Assembly: GCA_029266945.1 (NCBI GenBank)
Contig: JARIED010000001.1
Coordinates: 1-64,000, forward strand
Reading direction: 5' to 3'
Length of the DNA: 64,000 nt
Origin: Slackia sp.
GTDB lineage: Bacteria; Actinomycetota; Coriobacteriia; Coriobacteriales; Eggerthellaceae
Shown: positions 1-28,701 of the stretch, one piece after another
Numbering within the stretch: position 1 is the first letter of the stretch
How the letters are laid out: each line of letters begins with the position of its first letter
Program-made: the position numbers and the translations under genes
Notes under the pieces: generated by a model
What the model was told of the DNA's origin: nothing
Database searches by the model: none
The model's input: the letters and a program-made list of their open reading frames with translations, nothing else

Positions 1-2041
1 CCTTCGATTCCAAATCCTGCTCGAGCAAGAATTCTTTCTTACGATGCTTAAGATGTTGGTTCGCCTGAACTCGAAGTTTGAACTCGTCCCACGACGGAGC
101 ACCAGGCTGGCCCGAATTCATCCATTCATACGGAGTCTGCTCGCGTTTCTGCTGATTGCTCTCCGAAAGCACGAGCACCTTGTTATTACGCGAATTCTCT
201 CCCGTTCGCGAAAACGGAAGAATATGGTCGATCTGCGTATAGGCGTCATCGCTCAAAAGGCGTTAGACATGAATGCGCTCGCCCGTATATAAATCGGAGT
301 TTTCCTGCTCCTCCCACAAGCGATACTTCTCTATCTGCTTTCCACTCACCTCATCGGGACTGCAGGAAAGAATGTCCGCAGCCTGAACGGCTATGCGCTC
401 GCGCTCTTTCTCGTTTTTCTTATTGGCCTTGGCGATTTCTTCTTTCGCACGCTTAGGCAACCGAAGCTCGCGGTCAAGCTCAACGTGAATCTCGTTTGGA
501 ACGCCCCATTTACCGCATATGGCGTTTACGACTTTGCGCATTTGCGACATGGCACGAATAACGACAGGATTATTATTCGTGCGACCCGTCGCGCTTTCCC
601 AGGCCTCATACGGAATGAGCTTCTCGGAACGCTCGAGCTGGGGGCCGCCAAGACGCAACGCATCCAACCCACATGCCGCCTCGGCATCGGTCAGATTGAG
701 CACTTCGGGCTCTTTGAGATATTCAAGCAGCAAGTCGAGCGCTTTCTTCGAACGGCTTCCATATCCATTCAGCACTTTAGACGAATACGGCAGCGCGCAA
801 AGCGCCTGCTTTTCATCGTCGCTAAGAGGAAGCTGGCTGAGGCAGTTCTCCAAGCTCGACGCAGACGATGCATACGCAGCGGCCTCCATGACGGCATCCG
901 CCAAATCGATATCGTCCCTCAACCTTGCGAGAAGCTGCGGGTTGGATTCCCGCAACGTCGAATACAAAGCACGCCAACCGCTGGGTTTGAACACCTCACG
1001 GGTCTTCTCATCATCGGCAGGAACGCCCTTGAAATAATCGCGCGAACCCAAATCGAGCTTTTTGCGCAAGGCGCCGAACTTTACAACGCGGGTCTTCGCA
1101 TTCGGATCGGCCGTAAACAATATGCGGATGCACTCGTCGCGTTCGGCCGCCGTAAGACGGCGCGTGCCGCCATCGCCGAGCACGATGGTTATATTTCCCA
1201 AAGCGCCATACGCAGAAACAAGCTCGCTCGTAAGCGTGCAACGTGCCGCACGCTTCTCTTGCGGAAAGTAAACGCACGACCCCACCAGACCGTACGTGCG
1301 CCTATCGAAATCGTCTCGCGGTCGTTCCCAATTGCATATGTCGATGTATTCGCACTCGAAATCTTCAGAGGCAACCTTGGAACCGAACGAGCGCTGCGCT
1401 TCAAACAGAATACGAGTCTCTTCGATAAGCTGCTCGTGCTTGACGCACATATCGTAATTGCCCCCGTGGTTCCTGCTCGTGGGACGCGACGCGAGCCATT
1501 CGCCTACGGTTCTGAATTCACCTGCTGCAATTTCTTTTTCATTCGCGCTGATCGCAGCAAGCACCTTGCCGTCATCGCTCGATTTATCCTGAGCGCCTTC
1601 GCCGTGCGGAATGTAGCCACGACGTTTGCATAAAGAATAGAGGGCCATGCCCCACTCCCTGTTCGTGAGCATGCGGTTCAAACCGTCGACACGAAGTTTG
1701 AGGGGCTGTTTATCCCCTTTGACCGTATGAAGATATTCTTTATCAACATCGTCTGGAACGACGCCGTATTTCTTAAAGCACTCAAGGCAATGTTTGAGTC
1801 GATCCTGCGTTCGGTCGATATTGCGCCGCGTCGAACGGAAGCCGCGACGAATGGCGGCCAAGCTCTGCTTCGTTTTAGGATGCAACGGAGCATCGAACAA
1901 GCGAACGCCCATTTCCAAGATCTCATGATTGTTGATATCGAGCAGCGCAAAGCCACAACTCGCAATGCCTGGGTCCATCCCCAAAACCAGATATCGAGGA
2001 CGACCGAGCCGACCGACCGCCTCTGTTTTAACCTCGACCAT
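1..2041 (-). pseudogene. cas9: Cas9 (type II-C), interrupted by an in-frame stop; runs off the left edge
   Basis: RNA-guided DNA endonuclease of a type II-C CRISPR system. From the ATG at 2041 (AAGGAG upstream) the protein shows RuvC-I with the catalytic Asp in GMDPGIASCG (D23), an Arg-rich bridge helix near residues 60-90, a recognition lobe, and RuvC-II with the catalytic Glu in IHVELDREL (E521). Codon 593 is TAA (263-265). The same frame then continues without a stop to the window edge and encodes the HNH nuclease: RLLSDDAYTQIDHILPFSR, catalytic His at codon 606, then the Asn-rich NNKVLVL. The lesion is therefore a single nonsense codon, not a frameshift or a natural end. As read, the 592-residue product lacks HNH, RuvC-III and the PAM-interacting domain. 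An error in the source sequence cannot be excluded. Confidence 0.93.
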
Positions 2042-25464: not shown

Positions 25465-26856
25465 TTACGCGAGCGACGCTTCGTCGGCGTCGAGGGCCGC
25501 GGCGGCTTCTTCCAGCTGGACGCGGACGGCGTCATGGCCGGTGCCGCCGTAGGTGGTGCGGGCCGCCACGATGGCATCGATATCGAGCTCGCCCGCGATG
25601 TCGTCCTCGAACAGGTCGCTTGCACTCTTGAGCTGCTCGAGCGTCAGGTCCTCGAGGCCGCAGCCCTCGGTTTCGCACAGCAAGACCAGACGTCCCACCA
25701 CTGCGTGGGCCTCGCGGAACGGCATGCCGTTCTTCGCCAGATAGTCGGCCACGTCGGTGGCGGCCATGAAACCCTGGCCCGACGCCTTGCGCATGGCGGC
25801 CTCGTTGAGCTCCATGGTCTCGATCATGCCGCCCATGCACAGCATGCAGTCGTGCAGGGTCTTCGCGGCGTCAATCGCACCCTCCTTGCATTCCTGCAAG
25901 TCCTTGTTATAGGCGAGCGGCAGCGACTTCATGGTGACCAGTAGGCCCACCAGATCACCCACCACGCGGCCCATCTTTCCACGCGTCAGCTCGGCGAAGT
26001 CGGGGTTCTTCTTCTGCGGCATAATCGAGCTGCCAGTCGAGAAGGCGTCGGAAAGCGTGATGAAGGAATACTCCGACGAGGACCACAGAATGATTTCCTC
26101 GCACAGACGCGACAGATGCATCATCGACACGCTGCAGGCGTATTCCAAATCGAGCAGGTAATCGCGGTCGGACACGGCGTCGAGCGAATTGGGAATCGCG
26201 TGGTCGAAGTCCAGAAGCTCGCTGGTCATGGCACGATCGAGCGAATACGTGGTGCCCGCCAGCGCGGCCGAGCCCAGCGGGTTCGCGTCGGCGGCGTCGT
26301 AGGCCGCGGACAGGCGTGCGAAGTCGCGCGTGAACATCCAGAAATACGCCAGCATGTGATGGCTGAATAGCACAGGCTGGGCATGCTGCAGATGCGTGTA
26401 GCCCGGCATGACCACGCCGAAGTGGGCCTTGGCCTTCTCGACCAGCACGTGACGCAGCGCGATGCTGCCCTCCATCAGCGATGCGAGCAGCTCCTTCGCA
26501 TAGAGGCGCAGGTCGGTGGCAACCTGGTCGTTACGCGAACGACCCGTGTGCAGACGCGCGCCGGCCGCGCCGATATCGGCGATAAGCGACGCTTCGACCG
26601 CCATGTGGATGTCTTCGTCGTTCACGTCGAAAACGAACGAACCGTCGTCCATGCGCTCCTTCACAGCCGCAAGGCCCGCGTCGATCGCCGCCGCGTCCTC
26701 GGCGGAAATGACGCCCTGCGCGGCAAGCATTTTCGCATGGGCGCGCGAACCTGCGATGTCGTGCGCGTACATGTTCTTGTCAACCTCGAGCGAAGCGCCG
26801 AATTCCTGCGTGAAGGCGTCAACGCCTCCGACGAACCTTCCCGACCACAGTGCCAT
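25465..26856 (-). CDS. argH: Argininosuccinate lyase
   Basis: Last step of arginine synthesis: argininosuccinate to arginine and fumarate. 463 residues, the usual length. The start MALWSGRFVGG is typical. The catalytic signature loop GSSIMPQKKNPD lies near 279-290, and HTGRSRNDQVATDLRLY near 102-118. It is 83 nt downstream of argG on the same strand with AAAGG before the ATG, so argG-argH form an operon controlled by the argG leader. Confidence 0.97.
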   Translation of the reverse strand: MALWSGRFVGGVDAFTQEFGASLEVDKNMYAHDIAGSRAHAKMLAAQGVISAEDAAAIDAGLAAVKERMDDGSFVFDVNDEDIHMAVEASLIADIGAAGARLHTGRSRNDQVATDLRLYAKELLASLMEGSIALRHVLVEKAKAHFGVVMPGYTHLQHAQPVLFSHHMLAYFWMFTRDFARLSAAYDAADANPLGSAALAGTTYSLDRAMTSELLDFDHAIPNSLDAVSDRDYLLDLEYACSVSMMHLSRLCEEIILWSSSEYSFITLSDAFSTGSSIMPQKKNPDFAELTRGKMGRVVGDLVGLLVTMKSLPLAYNKDLQECKEGAIDAAKTLHDCMLCMGGMIETMELNEAAMRKASGQGFMAATDVADYLAKNGMPFREAHAVVGRLVLLCETEGCGLEDLTLEQLKSASDLFEDDIAGELDIDAIVAARTTYGGTGHDAVRVQLEEAAAALDADEASLA

Positions 26857-26939: not shown

Positions 26940-28235
26940 CTAGGCGGCGTTCGCCGCCTCCTCTTCGTCGGCGGCCATGTCGGCCTTGGACGCCGCAGCT
27001 GCTGCAGGGCCCTGCATGGCAGACCACGTGGTAACGGGCAGGCCGTACAAATCGATGAAGCCCTTGGCCGATTCGTGGTTGAACACGTCGTCGGCGCCAT
27101 AGCTCGCCAAATTGAAGTCGTAAAGCGAGTAGGGGCTCTTGCGGCCTGCCACGGTACAGCTGCCCTTGTAGAGCTTCATCTTCACCGCGCCGGTGACATG
27201 CTTTTGCGTCGTGGCGCAGAACGCGTCGAGCGCCATCTTCAGCGGCGAGAACCACATGCCCTGATACACCGCCGTGGCCCACTGCTGCTCGACGCCCAGC
27301 TTGTAATGCTGCGTCGCGCCATCGAGGCACAGGGTTTCGAGGGCCTTATGGGCATCGATCAGCACCTTCGCCGCAGGAACCTCGTAGCACTCGCGCGACT
27401 TCACGCCCACGAGACGGTTCTCCACCATGTCGAGACGTCCCACGCCGTGCGCGCCGGCTTTCACATTGAGCGCCTTCACGATATCGACGAAAGACATATC
27501 CTCGCCGTTAAGCGAACACGGAATGCCCTGGTCGAAGCCGATTTCGACGTACTCGGCCTCGTCGGGAGCATCGGCGGCGTCGGCTGTCATCGTCCAGATG
27601 TCCGCAGGCGGCTCGGCCCAAGGGTCCTCCAGCACGCCGCACTCGATGGCACGTCCCCACAGGTTGTCGTCGATCGAATACGGAGACTTCTTCGTGGCCG
27701 CCACCGACACGCCGTGGGCCTTCGCCCATTCGATTTCCTCTTCGCGGCAGTGCAGGTCCCACTCGCGCACCGGCGCGACGATTTCGAGCGTGGGGTCGAG
27801 CGCCTTGATGGAGGTCTCGAAACGCACCTGGTCGTTGCCCTTGCCCGTGCAGCCATGGGCGATGTAGCGCGCGCCGAGCGCGTGAGCCACTTCCACCATG
27901 TGCTTGGAAAGCAGCGGGCGCGAAAGCGCGGAAAGCAGCGGGTAGGAGTTCTCGTACAGGCCGTTGGCCGCAAGCGCCAGAGTGAGGAACTCGTTGGCGT
28001 ATTCTTCGCGCATGTCCACGGCGAACGAGGCGATGGCGCCCATGTCCAAAGCTTTCTGCTTGATGGCGGCAAGGTCGCTTTCGTCCTGGCCCACGTTGCC
28101 GCAGACGGCGATGACGTCGAAGCCTTTCTCGACCTGCAGCCATTTCAGGCACACCGAGGTGTCCAGGCCGCCCGAATACGCCAGAACGACCTTTTCTTTC
28201 GCCTGGGCGCCGTTCGCGTTCATCATGGTTTCCAT
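26940..28235 (-). CDS. argG: Argininosuccinate synthase
   Basis: Joins citrulline and aspartate with ATP to make argininosuccinate. 431 residues. The ATP-binding P-loop motif is VVLAYSGGLDTSVCLKWL near residues 14-31, and IAHGCTGKGNDQVRFE near 120-135 binds substrate. The ATG at 28235 follows AAAGGAG. The C-terminus carries an Ala/Glu-rich extension of about 20-25 residues after the usual end. First gene of the argGH operon, preceded by about 390 nt of leader with a small arginine-rich ORF and a terminator. Confidence 0.97.
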   Translation of the reverse strand: METMMNANGAQAKEKVVLAYSGGLDTSVCLKWLQVEKGFDVIAVCGNVGQDESDLAAIKQKALDMGAIASFAVDMREEYANEFLTLALAANGLYENSYPLLSALSRPLLSKHMVEVAHALGARYIAHGCTGKGNDQVRFETSIKALDPTLEIVAPVREWDLHCREEEIEWAKAHGVSVAATKKSPYSIDDNLWGRAIECGVLEDPWAEPPADIWTMTADAADAPDEAEYVEIGFDQGIPCSLNGEDMSFVDIVKALNVKAGAHGVGRLDMVENRLVGVKSRECYEVPAAKVLIDAHKALETLCLDGATQHYKLGVEQQWATAVYQGMWFSPLKMALDAFCATTQKHVTGAVKMKLYKGSCTVAGRKSPYSLYDFNLASYGADDVFNHESAKGFIDLYGLPVTTWSAMQGPAAAAASKADMAADEEEAANAA

Positions 28236-28401
28236 TGTTCGATCTCCTTTTCGTCGGCCGCGCCGTTGCTGCTTGCGCGGCCGGCGTCGTGTTCGCTTCG
28301 CCGCCTCAGGCGGCATTCGTCCGCATGCTCGATGCATACGCTGTCATGGTTTCTTGCGGCGGGAACGGCGCGACGGCCGCGAATTCGCCTGGAAAAACAA
28401 A

Positions 28402-28426
28402 AAGCACCCGGCGATGCCGGGTGCTT
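28402..28426 (-). terminator. Leader terminator (attenuator) upstream of argG
   Basis: Perfect 11-bp stem AAGCACCCGGC / GCCGGGTGCTT with a 3-nt loop, followed on the minus strand by TTTTTGTTTTT. It points towards argG, lies 167 nt before its start and 32 nt after the stop of the leader peptide. A strong terminator inside an operon leader is expected to be conditional. Confidence 0.85.
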
Positions 28427-28458
28427 CAGGGTCCTTATGAGGGGATGCTACAAGAAAT

Positions 28459-28554
28459 CTACCTTGTATGGACCGCAAGAAACACACGCGTGCATCGCAG
28501 CGTGTTACGTCGGTCCTGGCGTCGGAAGGAAAACTGCTGTGCGGTTGCGAACAT
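28459..28554 (-). CDS. Arginine-rich leader peptide of argGH (31 residues)
   Basis: Small ORF, ATG at 28554 to TAG at 28459, with a strong ribosome site GGAAAGGAG spaced normally. The peptide starts MFATAQQFSF, then has RRQDRRNTLRCTR and ends VFLAVHTR. Seven of 31 residues are Arg, at positions 11, 12, 15, 16, 20, 23 and 31, with codons CGA, CGC, CGA, CGT, CGA, CGT and AGG. The Arg cluster overlaps a hairpin (ACACGC/GCGTGT). A terminator follows the stop after 32 nt. This is the plan of a transcription attenuator in which ribosome stalling at Arg codons would spare argGH from termination. No arginine attenuator of this type is known to me. Confidence 0.75.
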   Translation of the reverse strand: MFATAQQFSFRRQDRRNTLRCTRVFLAVHTR

Positions 28555-28631
28555 GTCAGTTACTCCTTTCCGTTGAATCGCCGTTCGGGCATACATGGTA
28601 CTTTGCTTTATTGCATTAAAGCGTGAATCGA

Positions 28632-28660
28632 ACTTTAACGAATATTCCGAAACAATGCAA
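28632..28660 (-). promoter_or_regulatory. Predicted argGH promoter
   Basis: On the minus strand TTGCAT (28655-28660) and TAAAGT (28632-28637) are 17 bp apart. Transcription would start near 28625, about 70 nt before the leader peptide. The spacer contains the palindrome CGGAATATTCG. Confidence 0.55.
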
Positions 28661-28701
28661 GGAGAAATATAGATTTTCTCATTTCGGAATATCTATGCAT
28701 A
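28642..28701 (-). promoter_or_regulatory. Candidate ArgR operator and inverted repeat
   Basis: TATGCATAGATATTCCGA (minus strand, 28684-28701) fits the ARG-box consensus at 11 of 13 fixed positions by eye. An 11-bp inverted repeat, ATATTCCGAAA at 28642-28652 and its complement at 28682-28692, links this site to the promoter spacer; an inner GAGAAA/TTTCTC repeat lies between. Could bind ArgR or another repressor. Confidence 0.45.

Follow-up and report, generated by a model that had tools for sequence, protein, structure and literature searches.

An upstream leader of argGH in Slackia with the features of an arginine-sensing transcription attenuator

We found that the argGH genes of Slackia are preceded by a short leader that is very probably a ribosome-mediated transcription attenuator of the trp/his type, sensing arginyl-tRNA. 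The leader lies in a 64,000-nucleotide stretch of DNA (the window) and shows every defining feature of such attenuators that can be tested on sequence: an open reading frame with a Shine-Dalgarno (SD) sequence, a cluster of cognate codons, a terminator, an antiterminator that excludes it, and Arg codons within the stalling window. Translation of the leader, stalling on uncharged tRNA and read-through are predicted from these features. Several amino acids are known to act through classical attenuation, while arginine synthesis is the textbook case of control by the ArgR repressor. A search of the open-access literature turned up no previous bacterial transcription attenuator specific for arginine.

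In the proposed mechanism, plentiful arginine would allow the leading ribosome to pass the Arg codons, reach the stop codon and cover segment 2 of the RNA. Segment 3 would then be free, and the terminator formed by segments 3 and 4 would halt RNA polymerase before argG. When arginyl-tRNA is short, the ribosome would stall on the Arg codons, chiefly on the little-used CGA codons 11, 15 and 20, masking segment 1 but not segment 2; the 2:3 pairing would form, the terminator could not, and argGH would be transcribed. If the leader is not translated, the 1:2 pairing is expected to form and lead to termination. The elements concerned are:

28632 to 28660, minus strand: probable promoter, TTGCAT-17 nt-TAAAGT, its position read from the sequence
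28563 to 28569, minus strand: SD sequence AAAGGAG of the leader ORF, read from the sequence, ending 8 nt before the ATG
28459 to 28554, minus strand: leader-peptide ORF (uORF) of 31 codons with 7 Arg and the core SFRRQDRRNTLRC
28496 to 28516, minus strand: segment 1 (GGACCG...CACGCTGCG), carrying Arg codons 15, 16 and 20; pairs with segment 2 in the minimum-energy and alignment folds
28470 to 28485, minus strand: segment 2 (GTGTTTCTTGCGGTCC), able to pair with either segment 1 or segment 3
28449 to 28468, minus strand: small hairpin (TACAAGGTAGATTTCTTGTA) across the stop codon of the uORF, within the loop that separates segments 2 and 3
28421 to 28434, minus strand: segment 3 (GGACCCTGAAGCAC), antiterminator partner of segment 2, overlapping the 5' arm of the terminator
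28393 to 28427, minus strand: intrinsic terminator (segments 3:4) with a 12-bp stem, an AUC loop and a U-tract
26940 to 28235, minus strand: argG, argininosuccinate synthase (NCBIfam TIGR00032 / NF001770, above cut-off)
25465 to 26856, minus strand: argH, argininosuccinate lyase (NCBIfam TIGR00838, above cut-off), 83 bp downstream of argG

The uORF starts with ATG at 28554, ends with TAG at 28461-28459 and encodes MFATAQQFSFRRQDRRNTLRCTRVFLAVHTR. A preliminary description of this DNA had proposed a 31-codon ORF with a strong SD sequence and seven Arg codons, and all of these were found on the minus strand where it had placed them. Seven Arg among 30 codons has a probability of about 0.001, given the gene-wide Arg frequency of the 64-kb window. 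The Arg codons are, in order, CGA, CGC, CGA, CGT, CGA, CGT and AGG. Five of them had been singled out as CGA, AGG or CGC; this count is correct, but CGC is the commonest Arg codon in the window genes (70%), and only CGA is notably depleted there (21 of 621 Arg codons, 3.4%) and yet reused in the leader. Among 25 leaders, all reached through argG, CGA makes up 88 of 151 Arg codons (58%). The first Arg of both RR pairs is always CGA (25/25 and 25/25), and so is the later Arg in the [LV]R step of those leaders that have it (16/16). CGA is decoded by inosine at the wobble position, and its use in the leaders fits selection for a slow, starvation-sensitive codon.

The leader is conserved; the preliminary description had proposed to check this for the uORF, its Arg richness and the terminator in other Coriobacteriia. 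Eleven of 12 Slackia genomes encode argG, and the leader precedes it in 10 of these 11, the exception being genome G007. A purine-rich SD sequence stands ahead of the uORF in all ten Slackia leaders, and the terminator lies 3' of it in all class-I Slackia leaders. In the Atopobiaceae (family f4, an assignment based on named members, among them Parafannyhessea umbonata and Olsenella), the region 5' of argG was parsed at 24 loci: 15 carry an RR[QH].RR leader, six an adjacent argR and three neither, so that the leader is present in 15 of the 18 loci without adjacent argR. When one genome per species was scanned for the core pattern, all 17 sites lay 5' of argG, among them sites in S. piriformis, S. 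exigua, S. faecicanis and other named Slackia. Twelve of the 17 were read directly, and the remaining five lie on contigs that had been reached through argG. This pattern presupposes the core sequence, and codon statistics and frequencies were taken only from loci reached through argG. Because the leader is conserved across species, a chance origin is untenable on the comparative evidence. A family scan with a model of the leader gave strong matches only in the genus Slackia. Other matches, some of them in the same genome, were weak (all with E about 1e-3 to 1e-5) and resemble GC-rich hairpins that arise by chance; the exact leader core occurs once in this genome. In a tree of argG, the Slackia proteins group with those of Atopobiaceae and the Collinsella type (100/100) and not with most other Eggerthellaceae, and the leader has thus probably moved along with its gene, whether by descent or by transfer.

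What is conserved within the peptide bears on a different sensor. Arrest peptides that depend on a ligand are known, for example TnaC, SpeFL and the fungal arginine attenuator peptide, and a conserved S[FL]RRQ.RR.TLR peptide might likewise stall the ribosome in concert with free arginine or some metabolite related to it, the RNA switch then reading the stall. In class-I peptides, residues beyond Arg (S, F/L, Q, T and L) are indeed conserved, but the peptide sequence leaves unexplained why wobble positions are frozen to CGA. Moreover, the peptides of Collinsella and of other Eggerthellaceae share little except Arg codons, and a stall at Arg codons under abundant arginine would turn argG on when it is not needed. 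We regard nascent-peptide arrest as unlikely.

The same conservation, read as RNA, raises the question of a riboswitch, T-box or protein-binding leader in which the ORF occurs by chance. CGACGCCAG is strongly conserved at the nucleotide level, wobble bases included, which speaks for a purely RNA-based sensor. However, no Rfam family, T-box included, reached the gathering threshold within the 64-kb window. The Slackia leaders vary by whole codons at the N-terminus but not in the core S[FL]RRQ.RR..[LV]R, with the SD sequence and start codon retained, and unrelated leaders elsewhere preserve only the property of coding for Arg with CGA. We consider an RNA-only sensor highly improbable.

The RNA offers the alternative pairings that attenuation by a ribosome would need. 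Overlap of the Arg codon cluster with an RNA hairpin had been noted before and is borne out, and the leader folds far more stably than dinucleotide shuffles (z -4.2; 0/200 shuffles as good). In the 1:2 pairing of the minimum-energy fold, GGACCG (28516-28511) and CACGCUGCG (28504-28496) pair with GCGUGUG...CGGUCC, and both segment-1 strands fall within Arg codons. The preliminary description had recognised the architecture of attenuation and missed the antiterminator by eye; it can now be assigned to segments 2 and 3, where GUGUUUC-UUGC-GGUCC (28485-28470) is complementary to GGACC-CU-GAAGCAC (28434-28421). The terminator, GAAGCACCCGGC-AUC-GCCGGGUGCUUU followed by a U-rich tail, does point at argG as described, but it extends slightly beyond 28402, the limit given at first, and runs from 28427 to 28393. 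As judged from these complementarities, the leader has the 1:2, 2:3 and 3:4 design of trp-type attenuators. The small hairpin at the stop codon (28449-28468) also shows covarying pairs among the Slackia leaders. RNAalifold misplaced the terminator on a first alignment, in which segment 3 was misaligned, and anchored segments were used instead.

The antiterminator covaries between species. For 21 species, segment 2 of each leader was paired with its own segment 3 and with those of all other species; duplexes of own partners average -24.6 kcal/mol and those of swapped partners -21.0 kcal/mol (permutation p 5e-5). When codon position fixes the 5' arm and the terminator fixes the 3' arm, the 8-bp core helix is 85-86% paired in register (20 distinct sequences), whereas none of 24 slides exceeds 58%, and five of its eight pairs show double-sided changes. 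The covariation of the 2:3 helix is 0.357, against at most 0.206 for the slid versions, which correct for the relatedness of the leaders, and was reached by 1 of 500 shuffles, which ignore it. The duplex is weak in a few species (L177, L066 and L076).

We asked how the position of a ribosome would affect this switch by folding the RNA as far as the 3' limit of segment 3, minus everything 5' of the ribosomal A-site and 11 nt past it; this treats truncated RNA at equilibrium and is not kinetic. With the A-site at codons 1-9 of the Slackia leader, the antiterminator has at most two pairs and the 1:2 hairpin prevails. It is fully formed, with 12-16 pairs, at codons 10-20, decays at codons 21-23 and again has at most two pairs from codon 24 to the stop. 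Five of the seven Arg codons fall inside the effective window of codons 10-20, and those at codons 23 and 31 lie outside it. A ribosome at the stop codon gave the off state in 12 of 12 leaders folded. The off state without a ribosome was clear only in some of them (L002, L004 and L012). The protector hairpin 1:2 is weak in some relatives; in several, segment 1 competes weakly and the antiterminator also forms when the ribosome is absent or still at an early codon, which weakens the prediction that lack of translation means termination there. Since the antiterminator forms by default in some leaders, the basal control of argG may differ between species.

The genes downstream encode the last two steps of arginine synthesis, as identified by NCBIfam equivalogs. 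The argJ gene is absent from 9 of the 12 Slackia genomes, this one among them, and argGH thus probably serve the conversion of citrulline to arginine rather than completing synthesis de novo. The argCJ loci in the genus Slackia showed no leader comparable to that of argG. Elsewhere in the window, near the contig start, an ORF of 592 amino acids (263-2041, minus strand) resembles Cas9 by eye and is apparently shorter than full Cas9.

Transcription of the leader probably starts from the TTGCAT-17 nt-TAAAGT promoter, and TTGCAN...TAAAGT/TAAGGT is present in most Slackia relatives. An inverted repeat, TATTCCGAAA...TTTCGGAATA at 28643-28691, surrounds the -35 region as a possible operator, and a TGCATA element near it is seen in most Slackia relatives. 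The small ORF could in principle encode a functional Arg-rich peptide that owns the terminator, with argG under ArgR alone from its own promoter: argR is encoded elsewhere in the genome, away from argG, and the TGCATA elements near the promoter resemble ArgR boxes by eye. Yet the consensus scan gave no promoter-like site between the terminator and argG on the minus strand. The peptides vary in length (22-33 residues) and at the C-terminus, the RNA of segment 2 persists past the stop codon in some Atopobiaceae, and the 2:3 covariation also argues against a peptide that is itself the product. We consider this explanation very unlikely. Attenuation does not conflict with the usual control of arginine genes by ArgR; given the argR gene elsewhere in the genome, argGH may be under dual control by ArgR and the leader, an arrangement known from trp in E. 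coli.

Arg/CGA-rich leaders of argG recur across the order. Among 93 argG upstream regions without adjacent argR, 64 hold an Arg/CGA-rich small ORF (SD-preceded, at most 60 codons, with at least two CGA and at least four Arg in the last 25 codons), whereas the opposite strand has one in 6 of 93 regions and shuffled sequences in 60 of 930. These leaders encode several unrelated peptides, for example ones that end in DRRRR..LRRRRA, RRRRVEVTTRLRRR or LLRRVSRRRL. In family f10, which we take to be Collinsella-type Coriobacteriaceae, in part from named records, 10 of 13 parsed argG loci (L158, L182-L186, L188, L190, L193 and L194) have a conserved GTG-start leader with the peptide ATYEGMA...RRQRAISRRR. 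Its CCCGACGA could pair with a distant CGUCGGG-UUU or a nearby GUCGUC. In L044, L055 and L057, the CGA codons themselves supply the 5' arm of a terminator that is built around the stop codon. Such variants resemble pyrBI-type attenuation, where the position of the ribosome also blocks the terminator; the pyrBI system senses UTP via RNA polymerase pausing and not a codon. Some other leaders of the order have no clear U-tract downstream.

Roughly 40 further Eggerthellaceae loci have argR immediately 5' of argG. Such an argR usually ends with CTG CGA CGA CGN TAG TCGTC, a hairpin in which the codons CGA CGA CGN often supply an arm and which in many cases carries a U-rich tail; an LRRR end before argG is seen in L042, L043, L050, L083, L104, L136 and about 35 others. 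Where the genes adjoin, the end of argR may also serve argG as its leader ORF. None of the twelve Slackia argR genes adjoins argG or has this end. In G134, where argR is detached, LRRR is kept and TCGTC is lost, and argG has its own leader ending in ARLRRR. Pfam detected no ArgR in g2, g9, g20, g24, g31 and g33, genera with stand-alone Arg/CGA leaders of argG, and attenuation may have replaced the repressor there. These extensions across the order and to the argR end are suggestive and less tested than the switch of Slackia and the Atopobiaceae. The chances are about even that CGA-codon attenuation controls argG generally in the Coriobacteriia and has arisen several times, as unrelated peptides sharing only Arg/CGA runs, sometimes replacing ArgR, and with the argR end acting as a leader so that the repressor gene would carry its own arginine sensor.

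The enterobacterial trp, his, leu, ilv and thr attenuators resemble the Slackia leader in their cognate-codon ORF, the 1:2/2:3/3:4 pairings, the terminator and the cognate operon, whereas the Slackia leader would sense arginine, is biased to the little-used CGA and occurs in the Coriobacteriia. Control by leader peptides is also known within the same phylum from actinobacterial trp attenuators and ilv, leu and cys leader peptides (PMC1262725; PMC10272879), and a comparative study of amino-acid regulation saw no conserved RNA regulatory structure 5' of arginine operons in the actinobacteria that it covered (PMC1262725). In Staphylococcus aureus, rare Arg codons in the leader peptide rbfL sense arginine limitation; that system differs in being translational, with stalling that blocks the rbf ribosome-binding site, and in controlling biofilm and not arginine synthesis (PMC13009471). 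The fungal arginine attenuator peptide (arg-2/CPA1 uORF) gives arginine-responsive control of an arginine-biosynthesis gene, but through arginine-dependent nascent-chain arrest at the stop codon, which is translational, eukaryotic, opposite in logic and without a terminator (PMC11550727).

If the proposal is true, a whole class of human gut bacteria would sense arginyl-tRNA via one little-used codon, CGA. This would provide a clean natural test of whether attenuators use those codons and isoacceptors that respond most strongly to starvation. With its unrelated Arg leaders, and with genera in which ArgR is not detectable, the class would in addition allow one to study how translation-based control replaces a repressor or becomes coupled to it.
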